The notes under the pieces are model-generated. The model saw only the letters and a program-made list of their open reading frames with translations. It did not search any database and was not told where the DNA came from. Below are positions 7,662 through 19,090 of a DNA stretch of 21,676 nucleotides, piece after piece (position 1 is the stretch's first letter; the number at the start of each line of letters is the position of its first letter). Source of the DNA: a virus; IMG/VR virus record IMGVR_UViG_3300032116_001491, positions 1 through 21,676 of that record, one strand, 5' to 3'. The translations under genes were made by a program, and so were the position numbers.

Positions 7662-7913
7662 GTGCCAATCGCAACGAAAGAAGAAATCGCAGCGATGCGC
7701 CTATCCGACGAGCAACTCGCCGATTACTCTCGCCTGGTGACGTCACATCGAGACTTCATCGAACGCATCGACAAAGTTGAGCGCGTGGTGTTCGCTTACG
7801 AGGTGGAGCATGCAACCCTTGTCGCGGTTGGGTCGGCCCTCGCGACGCTCGGCCATGGGCCCGAGGTCATCGGGAACGTGCGGCTCCTTCTCGGCGCGGA
7901 GGAGACGCCGTGA
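7662..7913 (+). CDS. Small helical hypothetical protein, 83 aa
   Basis: It starts at a GTG at 7662, one base after the methyltransferase stop (MPIATKEEIAAMRLSDEQLA). The central part (FIERIDKVERVVFAYEVEH) is helical, possibly coiled coil. No domain is recognised. The stop overlaps the replication gene by GTGA, so it may work with it or merely be coupled to it. The ribosome site (GGCGGGTGA) is weak. Confidence 0.65.
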   Translation: MPIATKEEIAAMRLSDEQLADYSRLVTSHRDFIERIDKVERVVFAYEVEHATLVAVGSALATLGHGPEVIGNVRLLLGAEETP

Positions 7914-8812
7914 GCCGCATCCGCAGCATCAAGCCCGAGTGGCTCGACGACGAGCGCATGGCGATGGCGAGCCCGGAGGCCCGCGTCCTGTCCATCGCCC
8001 TGATCATCTTGTCCGACGACTACGGCAACGGCCGCGCGAACCTCACCATGCTCGGCGGCCGAGCGTTCCCGGGACACGACAACCCGCGCGAGGTGCTCGC
8101 CAAAGCGCTCGACGAGTTGGTTTCGCTCGCGTTCGTCGTCCCGTACGAGGTTGACGGGCAATCCTATTACTCAATCCGCAACTGGGAAAAGCACCAACGG
8201 GTCGACAAGCCGGGCAAGCCTCACGTCCCGCCGCCTCCCGCGGACAAGCCCAAAAACAAGGCAAAACACCCTCGCGAGACTCTCGCGAAAATTCCCGGGA
8301 GTCTCGCGAAAGTTCCGGAGACTCTCGCGCCTGACCAGGACCAGGAAGGGATCAAGGACCAGGAGAGGGAGAGGGAGAGGGAGAGCGCGGGCGAGCCCGC
8401 GGCCCACGTCGTCGTCTCTCACGGTGCCGAGGCTATGCTCCGGTCCCTCGTCGCCCCGACCGATGCCGACGCGGCGGTGGCGGCGCTCGTCTCCGAGACT
8501 CGGCAGGCGGCCGGCGGCGCACCGTTCCGCGGCACCGGCTTCGCGGACCGCCAAGCCGTCCAGAAACTCGCTGAGTGGGCCGCGGCAACCTTGACGCCTC
8601 CGGACCGACTGCGGGATGTCCTAGTGGCTTTCTGGGCTGCCAAGGGCACGACGGCGCGCCTGTCGTGGCTCGTCGAGGAAGAGCCGGGGCGGTTCCTCGG
8701 CAAGCCGAAGGTCCGGGGCATGGCGCCCCCGGTGTCTCACGGGGAGTTCGCGCGACAGGTGGCCGAGGCAGGAGCAACGGAGGGCGGGTATGCAGCGATC
8801 GCATTCAAGTGA
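7910..8812 (+). CDS. Phage replication initiator-like protein (winged-helix N-terminus)
   Basis: The 300-residue product has the N-terminal signature of phage replisome-organiser proteins: RIRSIKPEWLDDERMAM, then SPEARVLSIALIILSDDYGN, a FPGHDNPREVLAKALDELVS helix and YYSIRNWEKHQRV near residue 96. Such proteins bind the origin and recruit a helicase loader. A low-complexity linker (residues about 101-165) contains three heptapeptide repeats (ETLAKIP, GSLAKVP, ETLAPDQ) and an ERERERE tract. The C-terminal domain (about 165-300) likely contacts the helicase or its loader. The GTG start overlaps the upstream stop, and the next gene, a DnaC-like loader, overlaps by 23 bases, which supports a joint role in initiation. 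Confidence 0.85.
   Translation: MSRIRSIKPEWLDDERMAMASPEARVLSIALIILSDDYGNGRANLTMLGGRAFPGHDNPREVLAKALDELVSLAFVVPYEVDGQSYYSIRNWEKHQRVDKPGKPHVPPPPADKPKNKAKHPRETLAKIPGSLAKVPETLAPDQDQEGIKDQERERERESAGEPAAHVVVSHGAEAMLRSLVAPTDADAAVAALVSETRQAAGGAPFRGTGFADRQAVQKLAEWAAATLTPPDRLRDVLVAFWAAKGTTARLSWLVEEEPGRFLGKPKVRGMAPPVSHGEFARQVAEAGATEGGYAAIAFK
8276..8385 (+). repeat. 21-bp direct repeats and polypurine tract; candidate origin
   Basis: Three tandem 21-bp units start at 8276, 8297 and 8318. Units 1 and 2 differ at 4 of 21 positions, and unit 3 matches the first 12 bases of unit 1 (GAGACTCTCGCG) before diverging. An A-rich stretch (8245-8270) lies just before them and a 25-base all-purine tract with AGAGGG repeats (8361-8385) lies just after. 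The repeats encode the heptapeptide repeats of the replication protein linker. The layout of iteron-like repeats inside the initiator gene is like the lambda origin inside gene O. Calling it an origin is inference. Confidence 0.5.
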
Positions 8813-9524
8813 GGGCTTCGGCGCGTTGATCGCGCAGGCGCAGGCGGCGGCGCAGGCCGCAGCCGAGGCGGAACTCTCGCGGGCGCTGGCCGCTGGGTTC
8901 GACTCGGTCGAGGCGTGGCACGCGCACCGGGACGAGCTCGAGCGGCTCCGGGCCGAGGCTCAGACGCGGGCGGCTCGCGAGGCGCACGCTCGGCTCGTGC
9001 TCGAGCAGGTCGGATCCCGGGTGAGCGACGACGTGGCGCGGCGGCTCGTCGCGGGCGAAGGGCTCGACGACACCCCGGCGCACGTCGCCGTGCGCGACTG
9101 GCTGGCGAGCGACCGGCCGACGCTCGTGCTCTCGGGCGGGACCGGCGTCGGCAAGACGGTCGCCGCGGTCCGCGCGATGCTCACCCGGCAGCGGGTGCAG
9201 TTCATCCGGGCCCTGCGCATCGGCGCGCACTTCGAGCGGTGGGCGAGCGACCGGGAAAGCAACGTCGTGGCGCTCGACCTCGGGGCGGACCTGCTCGTCG
9301 TCGACGACCTCGGGCAGGAGCCCGTCGAGGACCGTCGCGCGATGCCGGCGCTCGAGGAGGTGCTCGACTCGCGGCAGAGCGAGCGGACGCGGACGCTCAT
9401 CACCACGAACCTCGACGCGGACGCGATCCGGGATCGGTACTCCGAGCGCATCCGGTCGCGGCTCGCGCAGAACGCGAAGCTCTTCGCGGTGCCGGGCGAT
9501 GACCGTCGGAGGGTGCGGCGGTGA
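8790..9524 (+). CDS. DnaC-like AAA+ helicase loader
   Basis: The 244-residue product has a helical, Ala-rich N-terminal region (residues 1-75) and a C-terminal AAA+ ATPase core. Walker A is GGTGVGKT (116-123), Walker B is LLVVDDLG (168-175), sensor 1 is LITTNLDAD (203-211), and Arg residues in YSERIRSRL (217-225) fit the arginine-finger position. The DDLG box and TTN sensor are typical of DnaC/DnaI-type loaders, which place the replicative helicase at the origin. No replicative helicase is seen in the window, so the host DnaB may be the partner. The ATG at 8790 follows GGAGGGCGGG and overlaps the initiator gene by 23 bases. Confidence 0.9.
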   Translation: MQRSHSSEGFGALIAQAQAAAQAAAEAELSRALAAGFDSVEAWHAHRDELERLRAEAQTRAAREAHARLVLEQVGSRVSDDVARRLVAGEGLDDTPAHVAVRDWLASDRPTLVLSGGTGVGKTVAAVRAMLTRQRVQFIRALRIGAHFERWASDRESNVVALDLGADLLVVDDLGQEPVEDRRAMPALEEVLDSRQSERTRTLITTNLDADAIRDRYSERIRSRLAQNAKLFAVPGDDRRRVRR

Positions 9525-10429
9525 AGATTGGTTCCCTCTTCTCAGGCATCGGCGGCCTAGAGCTCGGACTAGAGCGCGCCGGCCTCGGCCACGTCGTGTG
9601 GCAGTGCGAAATCGATTCGTGGTGTCGCCAGGTGCTCGCGAAGCACTGGCCGGAAGCGACGAGGTACGAGGATGTTCGATCGGTCGGCCGAGCAAATGCA
9701 GCTCCCGTGGATGTCATCTGCGGCGGGTTCCCATGCCAGGACGTCAGCCTCGCAGGCAAGCGAGCTGGGCTCGACGGCGCCCGCTCCGGGCTCTGGTTCG
9801 AGTACCGGCGAATCGTCGAGGAGCTCGCGCCGTCGGTCGTCGTCATCGAAAACGTGCTCGGACTGCGGACGTCTGGACTGCGACGAGTGCTCGCGGACCT
9901 TGCCGCTCTCGGGTTCGATGCGGAGTGGTCGGATCTTGCAGCTTCCGACGTCGGAGCTCCGCACCGTCGCCGGCGCCTGTTCATCGTTGCTACCCACCCC
10001 GAGCGCCTCAAGCTACGGAACGAACCGGAGTGGCTCGGGCGGGCGTGTCGGGCCGCTGCGGCCGAGTCTCGCGACGATGGCGAAGGGTGGGATGCTACCG
10101 ACGCCTGCGGCCCGGGACGGCGGGAGAGGCGGGGCGAGGAACCCGCACGGGCAGTTCTCGCCGAGCCTGCCGGATCTGGCGGTGCGCGGGATGCTGCCGA
10201 CGCCGACGGTGAAGGGGAACCACAATCGCGCGGGGCTTTCTCCGAGCAGTGGCGACGGGCTCGCGACGGCAGTTGGCGGCCGCCTGTCAGCCCGATTCGT
10301 CGAGTGGATGATGGGATTCGACGTGGATCACACGGACGTCGACTGAAGGCCCTCGGAAACGCCGTGGTGCCGCAGTGCGCCGAGGTCATCGGGCGCGCGC
10401 TTCTCGGCGCCATGCAGGAGGCAGCATGA
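9521..10429 (+). CDS. C5-cytosine DNA methyltransferase
   Basis: The 302-residue product is a C5-MTase. Motif I is FSGIGGLELGL (7-17), the catalytic Cys lies in GGFPCQDVS (C72), motif VI is ENV (110-112), motif VIII is GAPHRRRRLFIVA, and motif X is LKALGNAVVPQ near the C-terminus. It transfers methyl from SAM to cytosine C5, probably masking phage DNA from restriction. The GTG start overlaps the loader stop. Odd feature: between motifs VIII and X this frame is a low-complexity R/G/E/A-rich stretch, while the +1 frame over the same bases carries conserved methyltransferase-like sequence (see findings). Either the recognition region has been frame-shifted or overprinted, or two compensating indels are present. 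Confidence 0.88.
   Translation: MKIGSLFSGIGGLELGLERAGLGHVVWQCEIDSWCRQVLAKHWPEATRYEDVRSVGRANAAPVDVICGGFPCQDVSLAGKRAGLDGARSGLWFEYRRIVEELAPSVVVIENVLGLRTSGLRRVLADLAALGFDAEWSDLAASDVGAPHRRRRLFIVATHPERLKLRNEPEWLGRACRAAAAESRDDGEGWDATDACGPGRRERRGEEPARAVLAEPAGSGGARDAADADGEGEPQSRGAFSEQWRRARDGSWRPPVSPIRRVDDGIRRGSHGRRLKALGNAVVPQCAEVIGRALLGAMQEAA
9981..10346 (+). other. Conserved methyltransferase-like sequence in the +1 frame of the C5-MTase gene
   Basis: In the +1 frame, with no start codon at the boundary, the sequence reads SSLLPTPSASSYGTN, then RPSLATMAKGGMLPTPAARD, MLPTPTVKG, and AVGGRLSARFVEWMMGFDVD before a TGA at 10344-10346. Three LPTP motifs (9987-10001, 10092-10106, 10191-10205) and FVEWMMGF (10296-10319) match what phage C5-MTases show between motifs VIII and X. 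The main frame reads the same bases as RVDDGI where this frame reads VEWMMGF. Whether this frame is translated is unknown. Confidence 0.55.
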
Positions 10430-12852: not shown

Positions 12853-13226
12853 CCGAGAAGCAGAGGCGGTTCGTCGAGGCGTACGTGGGCGAGGCCCAGG
12901 GCAACGCGACCCGGGCGGCCAAGCTCGCGGGGTACTCGGGGAAAGATGACGCGCTCGCGGTCCGCGGGGCAGAGGTCGTAAGAAACCGTAAGGTGCAACT
13001 GGCCATCGAGGAGGCCCGCGCATCGGTCACTTCGGAAGCTATCGCGACTCGCGAGGAACGTCAGACCTTTCTCACGCGAACGATGCGCGACGAGGGCATC
13101 GAGCCGAAGGACCGGATCAAGGCGTGCGAGGTGCTCGGCAAGATGCAGGGCGACTTCATCGAGAAGCACGAGGTCAAGCACGAGGGCGCTGCGGTGGTGG
13201 TCCGCTTCCCGGTCCGCGGGTCGTGA
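12840..13226 (+). CDS. Terminase small subunit
   Basis: The 128-residue protein matches the Terminase_2 family: LTEKQRRFVEAYVGEAQGNA, TRAAKLAGYSG and a following AEVVRNRKVQLAIEEARA segment. This family forms the DNA-recognition subunit that selects phage DNA for packaging and regulates the large subunit. The HTH lies in residues 1-55, and the C-terminal part (KDRIKACEVLGKMQGDFIEK) probably mediates oligomerisation or TerL contact. The GTG start at 12840 has GAGAGG just upstream and overlaps the sigma-like gene by 13 bases. The end overlaps terL by GTGA. Confidence 0.93.
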   Translation: MQELTEKQRRFVEAYVGEAQGNATRAAKLAGYSGKDDALAVRGAEVVRNRKVQLAIEEARASVTSEAIATREERQTFLTRTMRDEGIEPKDRIKACEVLGKMQGDFIEKHEVKHEGAAVVVRFPVRGS

Positions 13227-14668
13227 GTAGGCCGCGCGTCTGCAACGACGACGGGCTCGAGTGTGCGGCCGACCCGCTCACGATGCGATGCCGCGTCTGC
13301 GACGCGCTGGTGATCGGCCCGATGTCGGGGCCGCAGGCCGCCTTCCTCGCGAGCCCGGCGGACGTCGCGATCTACGGGGGCGGCGCGGGCGGCGGCAAGA
13401 CGTGGATGCTCGCGCTCGATGCGGCCTCGGACGTTCACGTCGAGGGGTACGCGGCGATCATGTTCCGGCGCACGTCGCCCGAGCTCGTCGGCGGCGGCTC
13501 CATCTGGGAGGCGACGCAGGCCATCTATCGCCACCTCGGCGGCAGGCCCCGCAGCTCGCCGAATCTCGACTGGACGTTCCCGTCCCGCGCGATGGTCGAG
13601 TTGCGCCACCTCCAACACGAGGCCGACGTCTACGCGCACCAGGGCAAGCAGTACGCCTTCGTGGGGTTCGACGAGCTGACGCACTTCGAGGAGGCGCAGT
13701 TTTGGTATCTCGTCTCCCGCATGCGCACGACCTGCGGCATCCGCCCGAGGCTGCGCGCGACGTGCAACCCGGACCCGGATAGCTTCGTGCGCAAGCTGGT
13801 CGACTGGTGGATCGACGCCGAGGGCTACGCCATCCCCGAACGCAGCGGGCGCATCCGGTGGTTCTGCCGGCGGGACGACGACTCGCTCGACTGGAGCGAC
13901 ACCGAAGCCGAGGTGCGCGAGCGCAACCCAGGCCGCCCCGCGCTGTCGTTCACGTTCGTGCCCGCGCGGCTCGCCGACAACCCGGTGCTGCTCGCGAAGG
14001 ACCCCGGCTACATCGAGCGCCTCGACTCGTTGCCGAAGGTCGACCGCGACCGGCTGAAGGGCGGCAACTGGAACATCCGCCCAGCGGCCGGCCTCTACTT
14101 CCCCCGCCGGTGCTTCGAGATCATCGACCGCGTGCCGGGCCCGGTGACGATGACCGTCCGCGCGTGGGACAAGGCGGCAACCCGGCCGCACCCCGGCAAC
14201 CCGGATCCGGACTGGACCCGCGGCGCGAAGGTGTCGAGGCTGCGCGACGGCCGCTTCGTGGTCGAGCACGTCGAGGGCCTGCGCGGTTCGCCCGGCGAGG
14301 TCGAGCAGGCGATCCTCGCCATCGCCGCGCAGGACGGCCCGAGCGTGCCCGTCGTCGTCTGGCAGGACCCAGGCCAGGCCGGCGTCGTCGACCGCGACGC
14401 CACGCTCCGGGCGCTCTCCGGCTTTCAGGTCCGCAGCATCCGCGCGAGCCGGGACAAGCTCGCGTACGCGGGCGTGTGGGCGCCGCACGTCGAGGCGGGC
14501 CGAGTGCTGCTCGTGCGCGGGGCGTGGACGGACGCCTTCTTGGCCGAGGCCGAGAGCTTCCCCGAGGGCAAGCACGACGACGCCGTCGACGCGGTGTCGC
14601 TGGCCTTCCAGGCGCTCACCGAGTCGCGGTACGCCGAGGCGCTGGCCAAGGCGAAGTCGTGGCTCTGA
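13223..14668 (+). CDS. Terminase large subunit
   Basis: The 481-residue product is the packaging motor and nuclease. The N-terminal ATPase has Walker A GGGAGGGKT (52-60), a Walker B-type acidic strand in YAFVGFDELTHF and the ATCNPDPDS coupling motif. The C-terminal RNase H-like nuclease has RAWDKAATRPHP (first Asp) and KHDDAVDAVSLAFQ (last Asp). A Cys-rich N-terminal extension with C7, C14, C23 and C26 (the last two in CRVC) may bind zinc and precedes the ATPase core. The GTG at 13223 overlaps the terS stop. The family call is secure; the strategy (cos or headful) is not inferable here. Confidence 0.95.
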   Translation: MSRPRVCNDDGLECAADPLTMRCRVCDALVIGPMSGPQAAFLASPADVAIYGGGAGGGKTWMLALDAASDVHVEGYAAIMFRRTSPELVGGGSIWEATQAIYRHLGGRPRSSPNLDWTFPSRAMVELRHLQHEADVYAHQGKQYAFVGFDELTHFEEAQFWYLVSRMRTTCGIRPRLRATCNPDPDSFVRKLVDWWIDAEGYAIPERSGRIRWFCRRDDDSLDWSDTEAEVRERNPGRPALSFTFVPARLADNPVLLAKDPGYIERLDSLPKVDRDRLKGGNWNIRPAAGLYFPRRCFEIIDRVPGPVTMTVRAWDKAATRPHPGNPDPDWTRGAKVSRLRDGRFVVEHVEGLRGSPGEVEQAILAIAAQDGPSVPVVVWQDPGQAGVVDRDATLRALSGFQVRSIRASRDKLAYAGVWAPHVEAGRVLLVRGAWTDAFLAEAESFPEGKHDDAVDAVSLAFQALTESRYAEALAKAKSWL

Positions 14669-14670
14669 CG

Positions 14671-14686
14671 CCGGACGCTGGTCCGG
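14671..14686 (+). other. Small hairpin between terL and portal
   Basis: CCGGAC (14671-14676) and GTCCGG (14681-14686) form a perfect 6-bp stem with a 4-base loop, 3 bases after the terL stop and before the portal start. This gap is one of the few breaks in an otherwise overlapping gene series. It has no following T-run, so it may be a pause or RNA-processing site. The structure could also be chance in GC-rich DNA. Confidence 0.35.
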
Positions 14687-14699
14687 GTGACGGTGTGGC

Positions 14700-16079
14700 A
14701 TGGCCGACGACCGCATCGACGGGTTCCTAAACGCGCTCTCGGGCCTCGGGGGTTCCGTCGACCGGCTCTCGGGCGCGACCGTCGCCAGCATCCGCAACAG
14801 CATCGCCACGCAGAGCGTCCTCGAAACGCTGTACTACGAGGACGACCTCGCGGCGCGCATGGTCGACGCCATCATCGACGACGCCGTGCGGCAGGGCATC
14901 GAGCTTGACCGCGAGCAGAGCGTCGACGACGGCGCGGCGGCCGACTCCGGCACCGACGTGAAGCAAGCGGGCTCGGCCATCCTGCGCCGGATGCGCGAGT
15001 TGCGCGCGCTCGAGCGCGTGACCGAGGGCGCCCGGTGGGGTCGGCTCTACGGCGGCGGGGCGGTGCTCATCGTCCTCGACGACGGCAACCACGCGGCGCC
15101 GGTTGCGCTGGGTCGGAAGATCGTGTCGCTCTCGGCGCTCGACCGCTGGGAGATGACGCCGGTGTCCTACTTCGAGGACGTGATGTCGCCGCAGTACGGC
15201 GAGGTCGAGACGTGGCGCGTGAACCGGCGCGGGGCCCGGACGACGGACACGCTGGTCGTGCACGAGTCGCGGCTCCTGCGCTTCGAGGGCCTGCCGGTGT
15301 CGTCCATCGAGCGGGCGCGCCAGGACGGGTGGAGCCTCTCGGTGCTCACGCGCGCGTACGAGGTGCTGCGCGACGGCCAGCAGAACTGGCGCAGCGTGTC
15401 GAACATCCTCTCGCAGGCGACGCAGCCGATCTTCAAGATCAAGGGCCTCGCCGAGATGATCGCCAACGGGCAAGACGAGCAGCTCACGCGGCGCATGGAG
15501 GCGGCGAACCTCGTCCGGTCCATCCTCCGCGCGGTGCTCATCGACGCCGAGGGCGAGGAGTTCAAGTACGAGAACGCATCACTCGGCGGACTCGACGTCA
15601 TCCTCGACAAGACCTGGCAGCGGCTCGCGGCGGCGGGCGAGATGCCGGTGACGCGCCTCATGGGCATGTCGCCCGCGGGCCTGAACGCGACCGGGGAGTC
15701 GGACGTGCGCGGGTGGTACGACTCGGTGCAGAGCTACCGCGAGCAGGACCTGGGCCCGCAGATCGAGCGGCTCGTGCGCATCGTGGCGGCCGAGCTGGGC
15801 GACCAGACGCCGAGCGAGTGGGTCGTGCGCTGGCCGTCGCTCTGGCAGATGTCGCCGACCGAGCAGGCCGAGCACGAGGCGAAGATCGCGGGCACGGACA
15901 AGACCTACATCGACGCGGGCGTGCTCCTGCCCGAGGAGGTCGCGGTGACCCGCTTCGGCGGCGGGACGTACGACAGCGGCCCGGTGCAGATCGACGCGAG
16001 CCTGCGCGAGACGCCGGCCGAGCCCGCTGCGCCTCCTGCGCCGCCCGTCGAGCCCCCGCAGGCGCCCGAGGCACCGTGA
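14700..16079 (+). CDS. Portal protein (DUF1073/Acb1-like family)
   Basis: The 459-residue protein resembles DUF1073-type portals: an N-terminal helical region (NSIATQSVLETLYYEDDLAA, MVDAIIDDAVRQGIEL), GRLYGGGAVLIVLDDG, LRFEGLPVSS and a conserved segment LMGMSPAGLNATGESDVRGW followed by YDSVQSYREQDLGPQIERLV. Portals form the dodecameric ring through which DNA enters the head. The C-terminus is Pro/Ala-rich and probably flexible. It follows terL by 31 bases with only a weak ribosome site (GGTGACGGTG) and overlaps the head morphogenesis gene by GTGA, the usual order for tailed phages. Confidence 0.9.
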   Translation: MADDRIDGFLNALSGLGGSVDRLSGATVASIRNSIATQSVLETLYYEDDLAARMVDAIIDDAVRQGIELDREQSVDDGAAADSGTDVKQAGSAILRRMRELRALERVTEGARWGRLYGGGAVLIVLDDGNHAAPVALGRKIVSLSALDRWEMTPVSYFEDVMSPQYGEVETWRVNRRGARTTDTLVVHESRLLRFEGLPVSSIERARQDGWSLSVLTRAYEVLRDGQQNWRSVSNILSQATQPIFKIKGLAEMIANGQDEQLTRRMEAANLVRSILRAVLIDAEGEEFKYENASLGGLDVILDKTWQRLAAAGEMPVTRLMGMSPAGLNATGESDVRGWYDSVQSYREQDLGPQIERLVRIVAAELGDQTPSEWVVRWPSLWQMSPTEQAEHEAKIAGTDKTYIDAGVLLPEEVAVTRFGGGTYDSGPVQIDASLRETPAEPAAPPAPPVEPPQAPEAP

Positions 16080-17851
16080 CGGCTGCGGCGGTCCGGGCGG
16101 CCTACGTGCGGGCCCGCGGCGGCCGGCTGCGCAAACGCTCGGCCGAGCCCCCGAAGCTGCCGACGGGCGCCGAGATGGCGTACGTCCGGGCGCTGCGGGC
16201 CGCCGTGCGCCGGATGCGGGACGAGGTGCTCGCCCGGCTCGAGCCCGGCCTGAAGCGGGCGCAGGAGGCCGAGCGGCAGGACGCGACCGACGACCTGCGC
16301 GCGATCCTCCTGTCGATGGTCGGCGACGACGCGCTCGTGGCCGCCCTCGCCGGGGCCGAGACGCTCGCCACCATCGCGACCGTGTGGGGCCGGGTCGAGA
16401 CGCACAACCGCGGGCAGATGGAGCGCGTCCTCGGCGTGACCGGGCCGCTGCTCGACCTCGACCTGCGCCCCGAGCTCGACCGCTTCCGCGCCGAGAACGT
16501 CCGGCTCATCCGGTCCATCGGCCCCGAGGCTCTGTCCTCGGTGCTCGAGGAAGTGACCGAGGCGCAGCGGACCGGGATGCGGGTCGAGGAGCTTCGGGCG
16601 CGCATCGCCGAACGCTTCGAGGTGTCCGGCAGCCGGGCAGAGTTGATCGCCCGCGACCAGATCCTGAAGGCGAACGCGGACCTCTCGCGGACCCGGATGC
16701 AGCGCGTCGGCGTCACCCGGTACCGCTGGAGCACCAGCCGGGACGTGCGGGTACGGGCCGACCATGCCGCCCTCGAAGGCACGATGCAGACCTTCAGCGA
16801 CCCTCCGGTGGTCGACCAGCGGACCGGCCGGCGCGCGAATCCAGGGGTCGACTTCCAGTGCCTACCCGCGCACGAACACGTTCGGGTCGCGCACGGTGTA
16901 CGCCGGGCGTTCCGTCGTCCGGTTTCCGGGCAGGAACTTGTTCGCCTCGTCACGGCGGAAGGGCTCCGACTGGAAGTGACACCGAACCATCCGGTGCTGA
17001 CCGGATCCGGGTGGAAGGCTGCGCAGCATGTCGAGGTCGGCGATGACGTGTTCAGCGTTCACGGCGAGGGCGTGTTCGCTGGCGACCAAGACGTAGAACA
17101 CGGTCCACCCACGGCCAGCGAGGTATTCGAAGCGTGCGCGCTGCTTGGGGTTCGTGAGCGGGTTGCCGCCTCCGGCCCGCAGTTCCACGGCGACATGGCC
17201 GACGGCGAAGTCGAGGTTGTACTGCTCGACGGGGTGCTGCTCGGTGAAGTCGATCCCGCGCTCACGCAACAGGCGCGCGAGTTGCTCCTCGCCGACGCCG
17301 ATGCGCCGCGTCTTGGTAGCCGCGAGTCGGCAGCGGTGGGCGTGGCTCTTGGGCTTCCCTCGCACGGCATCATGGGCCGCGCTCGCGAGGCGCTTGCGCT
17401 CCTGCTCCGGCGTGCGCGCCATGCGGACGAACATCGCCTCGGACCGCCCGCGCAGCCGAACCCCGGCGCGAGCGAGGGCCGCCGCGAGAGTCCGGCGCTC
17501 GATGCCGTATCGGTCGGCGAGCGCCTTCAGGCTGAAGCCCTCGACGTAGAGGCGTGCCGCCTCCTCGCGCGGGAAGTCCTTCGCGTTGCTGGCTGGCCTG
17601 TAGACGCGGGACGGCCCGCCGACGCGGAGCAGCTTGAGGCGGATGCCGTCCTCGCTGGCGCCAACGGCGAGCGCGATCTCGCGGCAGGAGCGGCCCTCAC
17701 GACGAAGCGCCATCGCGTCGTCGACTTGTCGCGCAGTCAGTACTCGGGGCATGTGTTCAACCTCGAAACGGGGTGTGGCTGGTATTCGGCTGACGTGGTC
17801 GTCCACAACTGCCGATGCGTAGCGATTCCCATATTCGATGATGACGACTGA
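16076..17851 (+). CDS. Head morphogenesis protein (Mu gpF/SPP1 gp7-like) with intein
   Basis: The extein is a minor head protein. Residues about 183-261 show the conserved module SRAELIARDQILKANADL, GVTRYRWSTSRDVRVRADHA and ANPGVDFQ, and the C-terminus ends CRCVAIPIFDDDD. The precursor is 591 residues. Residues 262-578 are an intein inserted between Q261 and the first Cys of the CRC motif; removing it rejoins DFQ to CRCVAIP and gives a 274-residue mature protein of normal size. Such proteins act inside the procapsid near the portal during assembly. The GTG start overlaps the portal stop. The frame is open through the whole intein, as splicing requires. Confidence 0.92.
   Translation: MTAAAVRAAYVRARGGRLRKRSAEPPKLPTGAEMAYVRALRAAVRRMRDEVLARLEPGLKRAQEAERQDATDDLRAILLSMVGDDALVAALAGAETLATIATVWGRVETHNRGQMERVLGVTGPLLDLDLRPELDRFRAENVRLIRSIGPEALSSVLEEVTEAQRTGMRVEELRARIAERFEVSGSRAELIARDQILKANADLSRTRMQRVGVTRYRWSTSRDVRVRADHAALEGTMQTFSDPPVVDQRTGRRANPGVDFQCLPAHEHVRVAHGVRRAFRRPVSGQELVRLVTAEGLRLEVTPNHPVLTGSGWKAAQHVEVGDDVFSVHGEGVFAGDQDVEHGPPTASEVFEACALLGVRERVAASGPQFHGDMADGEVEVVLLDGVLLGEVDPALTQQARELLLADADAPRLGSRESAAVGVALGLPSHGIMGRAREALALLLRRARHADEHRLGPPAQPNPGASEGRRESPALDAVSVGERLQAEALDVEACRLLAREVLRVAGWPVDAGRPADAEQLEADAVLAGANGERDLAAGAALTTKRHRVVDLSRSQYSGHVFNLETGCGWYSADVVVHNCRCVAIPIFDDDD
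16859..17809 (+). mobile_element. Intein (Hint domain), 317 residues, in head morphogenesis gene
   Basis: The intein starts with Cys (CLPAHEHVRVAHG, block A) and has a clear block B, EVTPNHPVLTGSGW, with the TxxH residues. It ends with block F/G GHVFNLETGCGWYSADVVVHN directly followed by Cys+1 of the host protein. All residues expected for standard splicing (Cys1, block B His, terminal His-Asn, Cys+1) are present, so it is probably active. The segment between the N- and C-terminal splicing blocks (residues about 68-270) shows no endonuclease in the sense frame. The same DNA encodes a nuclease on the opposite strand. Boundaries follow from restoring the DFQCRC motif. Confidence 0.93.
16862..17752 (-). 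CDS. Antisense-encoded putative homing endonuclease (Vsr/EDxHD-like) within the intein
   Basis: This 296-residue minus-strand protein begins MPRVLTARQVDDAMALRREG, with GAGG 7 bases before the ATG. Two HTH segments follow: residues 8-45 and about 61-102 (EEAARLYVEGFSLKALADRY). The nuclease-like domain is at about 150-241: GVGEEQLARLLRERGIDF, EQYNLDFAVGHVAVELRAGG and GRGWTVFYVLVASEHALA, with E155, D181 and E190 in acidic positions of the Vsr/EDxHD homing endonuclease fold. The His usual after the last acidic residue is not obvious, so activity is uncertain. Its TAG stop lies opposite intein codon 2. Codons have high third-position G/C, like neighbouring genes. It is in register with the sense codons. 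Confidence 0.8.
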   Translation of the reverse strand: MPRVLTARQVDDAMALRREGRSCREIALAVGASEDGIRLKLLRVGGPSRVYRPASNAKDFPREEAARLYVEGFSLKALADRYGIERRTLAAALARAGVRLRGRSEAMFVRMARTPEQERKRLASAAHDAVRGKPKSHAHRCRLAATKTRRIGVGEEQLARLLRERGIDFTEQHPVEQYNLDFAVGHVAVELRAGGGNPLTNPKQRARFEYLAGRGWTVFYVLVASEHALAVNAEHVIADLDMLRSLPPGSGQHRMVRCHFQSEPFRRDEANKFLPGNRTTERPAYTVRDPNVFVRG

Positions 17852-17875
17852 CGTCAGGGCGTCGCGGCCCTGACG
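17852..17875 (+). other. Perfect hairpin after intein-bearing gene
   Basis: CGTCAGGGC (17852-17860) and GCCCTGACG (17867-17875) form a perfect 9-bp stem with a 6-base loop immediately after the TGA of the head morphogenesis gene. The 54-base gap that holds it is one of the longer ones among the rightward genes. No T-run follows, so it may be a pause, an attenuator or a 3'-end stabiliser for the upstream mRNA. On the other strand it lies about 100 bases upstream of the antisense endonuclease start, so it could also affect that transcript. Confidence 0.5.
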
Positions 17876-17905
17876 CGCCCGCCGCACCTGTGGCGAGGTG
17901 AGCGG

Positions 17906-19090
17906 GTGACCGAAATCCGACTCGACGCCGGGACCGTTGCCTCCGTCCGCCGCACGCCACAGGGCGGGCTGCGGGTCGACGCGCGCCTGACTCGCGTCGG
18001 GGTGCTCACCTACCGCAACGCGGACGGGACGGAGCGGCGCGAGTTCCGGCCGCCCGAGGAAGTGTTCGCGGCCACGTCCCTCGACAGCCTCCGCGGCGCG
18101 CCCGTGACGGACCTGCACCCCTCCGAGATGGTCCGGACCGACAATCACGCCGTTCTCGCTCGCGGTCACGTAGGCGACGACGTCCGCGAGGATGCCGGGA
18201 CCTACGTGGCCGCGACCCTCTACGTGCAGGACGGCCGCCTCGTCGAGATGGTCGAGCGCGGAGACCGGCGCGAGATTTCGTGCGGCTACGTCTGCGACTT
18301 CGACCCGACCCCCGGCGAGTTCGAGGGCCAGCGGTACGACGGGGTGCAGCGGAACATCACCTACAACCACGCCGCCCTCGGACCCCGCGAGTGGGGTCGG
18401 GCTGGTTCGGAAGTCGCGCTGCGGATGGACGCGGCGGACGTGTGGACGTCAGCGGTCGACGAGGCCGAAGGAGACACCATGAAGAAGCGCAAGGACGAGG
18501 GCGAGGTCGTCGCCCCGGCGCCGGCTGCGGATGCTCCGCCGGCCGACGACAAGCCGACCCAGGACGCGCCGACGTGCGAGCACTGCGGAGCCCCGGTCAA
18601 CGCCGAGGGCAAGTACGCCGCGCCCGTCGTCGAGATCGAGGACGGCGGCAACGCCGCGCCTGAAGAGAAGATGGACGCCATCAAGGCCCGGCTCGACGCG
18701 CGCGACGCGGAGGTGTCCGACCTGCGGCGCCGCCTCGACGAGGCGAACGACCCGAAGCGCCTCGCCGCCCTCGTCGCCGACGTCGTCTCGGTGCGTGAGG
18801 TCGCGGCTCGTGCGGGTGTCGAGCGCACCGACAGCACCGACAGCAAGGCCCTGCGCGCTGCCGTCGTCGAGAAGGTTCTCGGCCTCCGCTGCGACGGCAA
18901 GTCGGCCGACTACATCGCCGCGAGCTTCGACGCCGCGGTGAAGGTGCTCGAGCAGCGCGGCGTCGGCCGTGCTCGCGCGACCGTCGACGGCGGGGCCGAT
19001 GCTCCGCCCGTCGGCGGCCTCATCGCCGATCTGCACCGCAGCGCGGCAGCCCACGTCCAGAAGAACAACTACGAGAAGGGAGGCCGCTGA
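17906..19090 (+). CDS. Prohead protease with fused scaffold (DUF2213-like)
   Basis: The 394-residue product has an N-terminal protease domain like DUF2213: GLRVDARLTRVGVLTYRNAD, a conserved VTDLHP, REISCGYVCDFDP and NITYNHAALGP. H71, S125 and H155 fit a herpes-assemblin-like Ser-His-His triad. Residues about 192-394 are charged and helical (KARLDARDAEVSDLRRRLDE is coiled coil) and resemble a scaffold, with a CEHC pair near 230. The protease would mature the procapsid and cut the scaffold. The GTG at 17906 has GAGGTGA upstream. A second, internal start at residue 192 may produce the scaffold alone. Confidence 0.85.
   Translation: MTEIRLDAGTVASVRRTPQGGLRVDARLTRVGVLTYRNADGTERREFRPPEEVFAATSLDSLRGAPVTDLHPSEMVRTDNHAVLARGHVGDDVREDAGTYVAATLYVQDGRLVEMVERGDRREISCGYVCDFDPTPGEFEGQRYDGVQRNITYNHAALGPREWGRAGSEVALRMDAADVWTSAVDEAEGDTMKKRKDEGEVVAPAPAADAPPADDKPTQDAPTCEHCGAPVNAEGKYAAPVVEIEDGGNAAPEEKMDAIKARLDARDAEVSDLRRRLDEANDPKRLAALVADVVSVREVAARAGVERTDSTDSKALRAAVVEKVLGLRCDGKSADYIAASFDAAVKVLEQRGVGRARATVDGGADAPPVGGLIADLHRSAAAHVQKNNYEKGGR
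18479..19090 (+). CDS. Possible internal-start scaffold product (in frame), 203 aa
   Basis: Within the protease gene, an in-frame ATG at 18479 (MKKRKDEGEVVAPAPAADAP) is preceded by GAAGGAGACACC, a good ribosome site at proper spacing. It falls exactly at the junction between the protease domain and the charged, coiled-coil scaffold part. This is the arrangement of lambda genes C and Nu3, where the scaffold is made separately and in excess from the same frame. The independent product is inferred from the site alone. Confidence 0.5.
   Translation: MKKRKDEGEVVAPAPAADAPPADDKPTQDAPTCEHCGAPVNAEGKYAAPVVEIEDGGNAAPEEKMDAIKARLDARDAEVSDLRRRLDEANDPKRLAALVADVVSVREVAARAGVERTDSTDSKALRAAVVEKVLGLRCDGKSADYIAASFDAAVKVLEQRGVGRARATVDGGADAPPVGGLIADLHRSAAAHVQKNNYEKGGR

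Follow-up and report, generated by a model that had tools for sequence, protein, structure and literature searches.

Two overlapping frames of one phage locus may encode the two subunits of a C5-cytosine methyltransferase

Can a single stretch of phage DNA, read in two frames of the same strand, supply two parts of one enzyme? The question is raised by a methyltransferase gene in a 21.7 kb virus record from a tailed phage (IMGVR_UViG_3300032116_001491; "the window" is this whole stretch of 21,676 nucleotides), where it is flanked by genes for a DnaC-like helicase loader and an HTH protein. The genes for a replication initiation protein and the DnaC-like loader occupy 7910-9524, and those for the terminase large subunit, portal, Mu F-like head protein, and head maturation protease sit downstream of the methyltransferase locus (13124-19090). 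A sequence-only reading had proposed that the main frame (frame 0) holds C5-methyltransferase motifs, that the +1 frame over 9981-10346 spells out a second, methyltransferase-like series, and that a frameshift that rewrote the recognition domain relates two phage subfamilies. Our own answer, which we consider probable, is that this DNA encodes a two-subunit C5-methyltransferase (C5-MTase), in which the subunit with the recognition domain (TRD) and motif IX (beta) is nested within the catalytic one (alpha), the pair working like M.EcoHK31I. The features discussed are collected in Table 1.

Table 1. Positions in the window of the two overlapping reading frames, their motifs, and their putative translation signals
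Feature	Position	Strand	Remarks
Alpha, frame-0 C5-methyltransferase ORF	9521..10429	+	302 aa, GTG start, motifs I-VIII and X
GGAGG ahead of the alpha GTG start	9508-9512	+	
Alpha motif I, FSGIGG	9539..9556	+	
Alpha motif IV, GFPCQ (catalytic Cys)	9725..9739	+	
Alpha motif VI, ENV	9848..9856	+	
Alpha motif VIII, GAPHRR	9953..9970	+	
Alpha residues 185-265, predicted disordered where the recognition domain is expected	10073..10315	+	structure model
Alpha RRVDDGI	10298..10318	+	codons read directly
Alpha motif X, LKALGNAVVPQ	10343..10375	+	
Beta, +1-frame ORF wholly inside alpha	9672..10346	+	224 aa, ATG start, LPTP repeats, motif-IX-like end
GAGGT, candidate Shine-Dalgarno for the beta ATG at 9672	9661..9665	+	6 nt spacer
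Beta repeat 1, LLPTP	9987..10001	+	
Beta repeat 2, MLPTP(AARD)	10092..10106	+	
Beta repeat 3, MLPTP(TVKG)	10191..10205	+	
Beta motif-IX-like segment, GGRLSARFVEWMMGF	10275..10319	+	motif IX call inferred from split and single-chain relatives

The main frame does carry motifs I-VIII and X, as had been claimed, and motifs I, IV (PCQ), VI (ENV), VIII, and X follow one another in order within the single protein alpha. It matches phrog_363, which is labeled as a DNA methyltransferase, across nearly its full length, and its match to the Pfam model DNA_methylase is limited to residues 1-162. In a C5-cytosine methyltransferase, the TRD and motif IX lie on one chain, flanked by VIII and X, but they were not found in alpha: motif IX is absent, an IX-like segment being found in the +1 frame instead, and the structural model has no ordered domain between VIII and X. 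What the model does contain is an ordered large domain and a motif X helix, with residues 185-265 disordered. Its best structural match is M.HhaI, to whose large domain the ordered parts correspond, but in M.HhaI, a single chain, VIII and X are separated by the recognition domain and motif IX.

In the other frame, the series LLPTP, MLPTPAARD, MLPTPTVKG, and FVEWMMGF (10296-10319) and the stop codon (10344-10346) all lie where the sequence-only reading had placed them. The bases that give VEWMMGF were said to give RVDDGI in frame 0, and they do; alpha reads VDDG because it is forced to by EWMMG of beta on the same bases. The placing of the overprinting at 9981-10346 held in part, in that the recognition region and the IX-like segment are in +1 there, but the overlap starts earlier, near alpha codon 50-85. 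The +1 frame is open from 9573, and beta also spans alpha motifs IV-VIII. By codon position, the GC content looks +1-coding over 9986-10346 and frame-0-coding thereafter. Like alpha, beta has homologues of its own: it matches phrog_1008, also labeled as a DNA methyltransferase, at 3.7e-26 over residues 17-182, a match that starts far upstream of 9981 and is shared by all 45 aligned beta sequences. In the Pfam search of beta no methyltransferase model was matched, nor anything meaningful. Going by these matches, phrog_363 and phrog_1008, which are unlinked in the library, can be two frames of one type of locus. Family-wide, beta ends in RLxPxFVEWMMGFPxGWT, which we take to be motif IX. The window's beta is without the nearly invariant P of GFP, and this copy could be weakened by the loss.

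How widely is this arrangement shared? With beta as the query, 79 loci were found in viral contigs, a sample partly seeded on FVEWMMGF, and in 76 of these, at GC contents of 0.32-0.73, beta lies in exactly the +1 frame of an overlapping open C5-MTase ORF. Of the three exceptions, L034 is truncated where its contig stops, L007 has a frame change within alpha, and L048 contains two MTases in tandem, beta again occupying the +1 frame of its own alpha. GTDB genomes yielded nested loci in Bdellovibrionota, Planctomycetota, Bacteroidota, Bacillota, Chloroflexota, Thermodesulfobacteriota, Pseudomonadota, and candidate phyla; among 369 genomes sampled from one class, 14 had a beta match, and most of those inspected were nested. 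Escherichia coli genomes gave no DNA-similarity match to a mid-GC relative, and plasmid searches with beta gave one match and two matches. Public records usually annotate one frame, which is alpha in Acinetobacter phage ABMM1 and Synechococcus phage S-H1; in MW202476, beta alone is annotated. On the Bacteroides fragilis plasmid pBFO17_1, a 244-aa "dcm" (L183, 917-1651) is annotated alone, with an LPTP/MNFPIGWTE reading in its +1 frame that is an unannotated candidate beta.

One sequence's pattern, taken alone, would permit the explanation that an ordinary single-chain enzyme had its recognition region displaced, either by two indels from sequencing or assembly or by two recent mutations. We give this almost no credence: the same +1 layout recurs in dozens of independent contigs, in isolate phage genomes such as those of S-H1 and ABMM1, and in bacterial genomes. 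For the family, indel errors, which the sequence-only reading had named as one way in which it could fail, are ruled out by relatives that share the arrangement.

Is the +1 ORF, then, a mere shadow cast by a conserved alpha protein in GC-rich DNA? In the window copy alone chance suffices, the shuffle probabilities of finding no stop (0.12 and 0.18) being unremarkable in such DNA, so that the significance of the open frames comes from the relatives. There, the alpha protein was kept and its synonymous codons were redrawn over a fixed region, namely the 75 codons up to the end of motif VIII; this region replaced a start at the ORF opening, which had biased the count of stops upstream of VIII. 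Across 56 loci, the +1 frame has 1 stop before the end of motif VIII against 156 expected, whereas the +2 control frame has 184 against 209 over the same region. Stop avoidance in +1 is the same in loci at 32-45% GC, and chance ORFs in GC-rich DNA are ruled out by the shuffles together with these low-GC loci. Our control set of supposedly ordinary C5-MTases mostly bore another +1 gene, which left L187 and L188 as the only clean controls; without a +1 gene, these have 14 stops in +1 against about 11 expected. Between VIII and IX, frame 0 has zero stops against 275 expected, a biased figure as loci with such stops were excluded beforehand.

Substitutions, too, point to selection on both frames. 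At fourfold sites of alpha, the difference between close pairs is 0.124 inside the overlap versus 0.451 before it; for more distant pairs it is 0.368 inside versus 0.622 before, and 0.408 inside versus 0.679 before. Between VIII and IX, substitutions concentrate at beta third positions, and at 55-65% DNA identity beta is better conserved in this region (0.535) than alpha (0.337). The suppressed fourfold sites of alpha count against a shadow, and although WKTSQ and GMMRNG of beta, upstream of the repeats, are readable as shadows of LENV and GYDAEW of alpha, we regard a shadow as highly improbable. What is expected of an overprinted gene pair was found, with the +1 frame open beyond chance in relatives and selection acting on both frames. 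The suggestion that both frames are still readable thus fared well: they are open in the window and kept by selection in its relatives.

Another possibility is that beta is made, not as a separate protein, but by programmed ribosomal frameshifting, with one long protein whose reading moves from frame 0 to +1 beyond motif VIII and perhaps returns ahead of X. The conserved switches of frame near VIII, and again before X, would suit this. However, joining I-VIII, IX, and X requires two shifts, nearly all nested loci lack a frame-0 stop in the region, and the +1 frame is open and constrained far upstream of VIII, which frameshifting does not need. Beta also has its own ATG: within alpha codons 30-150, an ATG with a Shine-Dalgarno sequence occurs 52 times in +1, compared with 7 in frame 0 and 10 in +2, and the +1 sites cluster near alpha codons 84-86 and 47-63. 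This enrichment points to an internally started protein rather than a frameshift product, and we judge frameshifting very unlikely. As far as sequence can take us, there are two ORFs, conserved jointly, with selection on both frames and an enrichment of start sites in +1.

That beta is a real protein is all that the selection data establish, and it might be a separate overprinted gene with another function (a regulator, an anti-restriction factor, or a nuclease) and no methyltransferase subunit at all. The AF2 model of beta is poor and mostly of low confidence (mean pLDDT 58), with only the IX-like helix confident. Here the relatives with other layouts are instructive. In split relatives (L081, L103), the beta frame stays open past the IX-like motif and takes in motif X, a link between beta and the C-terminal half of a C5-MTase; split forms include those of mycobacteriophage Phlei and Gleimia. 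In the single-chain form, which is mostly actinobacterial, frame 0 holds both IX and X, and LPTP motifs are mostly in +1 (74, versus 11 in frame 0). Examples are Gordonia phage CheeseTouch (L082) and actinobacterial loci among L086-L150, in which a WGxYxPAIRRWExVxGRxAPxPTEP-like segment precedes the frame-0 IX and X. That these actinobacterial relatives keep LPTP in +1, though their alpha has its own IX and X, favors a separate gene, and for the same reason LPTP and IX need not act together. Nevertheless, the IX-like end of beta precedes a motif X of the same frame in split and single-chain relatives, and alpha is without motif IX and, in its model, without an ordered recognition domain. We regard a separate gene as unlikely, and the two-subunit enzyme remains our preferred reading.

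The relatives also bear on the proposed frameshift between subfamilies. In a catalytic-domain tree, the nested loci group together strongly (7 changes versus 41 in shuffles), and the split forms occupy five separate positions, most of them amid the single-chain form; given this scatter, conversion from one form to another by frame changes has probably happened repeatedly. The kinship that the sequence-only reading proposed is supported by this interleaving. Its notion that a recognition domain was rewritten is not, since both frames are selectively kept, phrog_363 and phrog_1008 being two products that are conserved together in most of the relatives found.

Should a C5-MTase in two pieces be expected to work? 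Lee, Kam, and Shaw reportedly found in 1995 that the gene for the small chain of M.EcoHK31I lies within that for the large chain, in a different frame. M.EcoHK31I (YGGCCR) is a natural two-polypeptide C5-MTase with motifs I-VIII and X on its large chain, along with the predicted TRD, and motif IX on its small chain (PMC3404938). M.AquI (CYCGRG) is also split, with motif X and IX on the small chain; fragments of M.SssI, M.HhaI, M.BspRI, and M.BsuRI complement each other; and two-chain C5-MTases, both natural and artificial, are functional (PMC3404938). Our comparison with M.EcoHK31I is by published description. The window locus likewise has I-VIII and X on the large chain and the IX-like segment on the small one, but its alpha has no ordered TRD and the repeats are on beta, whereas the predicted TRD of M.EcoHK31I is on the large chain; in addition, M.EcoHK31I belongs to a bacterial restriction-modification system and the window locus to a phage. 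As in M.AquI, which the split relatives L081 and L103 resemble, two polypeptides jointly carry all motifs, but the window locus differs in keeping X on the large chain and in having a nested small gene. Two further loci, L176 (1245-2138) and L186 (1501-2400), have a TRD-like stretch and X in frame 0 and a canonical motif IX (VRRLLPSECETLQGFPKGWT) in +1, a layout closer than that of the window family to M.EcoHK31I as published; L176 has one internal stop and may be damaged.

From all of this we infer that beta is translated and binds alpha. Frame 0 would give alpha, with a large domain (motifs I-VIII) for S-adenosylmethionine (SAM) binding and catalysis, which the motif X helix closes, and an unstructured linker in place of the recognition domain, and an internal +1 start would give beta, with the LPTP repeats and motif IX. 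Together the two would form a single active enzyme, like the two polypeptides of M.EcoHK31I, its role probably being modification of phage DNA against host restriction. That the LPTP repeats act as the TRD is a guess from their position.

Beta may not be the only protein of its kind. A second, different +1 reading occurs at the same place in phage C5-MTases (L197, L205-L258, L196), with the pattern ..LNTSEYPKD..SLLLDVLQ..YSLSxKACxGILRRAxxRGKxLP.., over motif VIII and downstream, and with IX mostly in frame 0. In 33 such loci, the +1 frame has 0 stops versus 85 expected, and the +2 control has 143 versus 141; the L197 copy matches phrog_16143, a "DNA methyltransferase." In L187 and L188, a YYLTPNAAEGILRR-like (YxLTxxAAEGILRR-like) segment is found near the C-terminus of the frame-0 protein, as if a nested domain had been relocated to the chain's end. 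Carrying a nested second gene may be a trait that recurs among phage C5-MTases. We lean toward the broader view that a +1 overprinted gene is a widespread and old feature of these enzymes, with at least two nested proteins (LPTP/motif-IX and YxLSxKAxxGILRR) hidden by one-frame annotation. A text search of open-licence papers found no paper on nested genes in phage C5-MTases.

It is rare for a same-strand gene overlap that is both long and old to be proved in a DNA genome. The stretch described here seems to specify two parts of an enzyme that complement each other, at 32 to 73% GC and across several bacterial phyla. If this is true, many short "DNA cytosine methyltransferases" in databases, such as the plasmid-borne dcm of B. 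fragilis, would be half enzymes with an unannotated partner, and such halves may look inactive when cloned alone. Since nested, split, and single-chain forms coexist in this group, it would be well suited to studying how overlapping genes are gained and lost, that is, how an overlap forms and how it dissolves.
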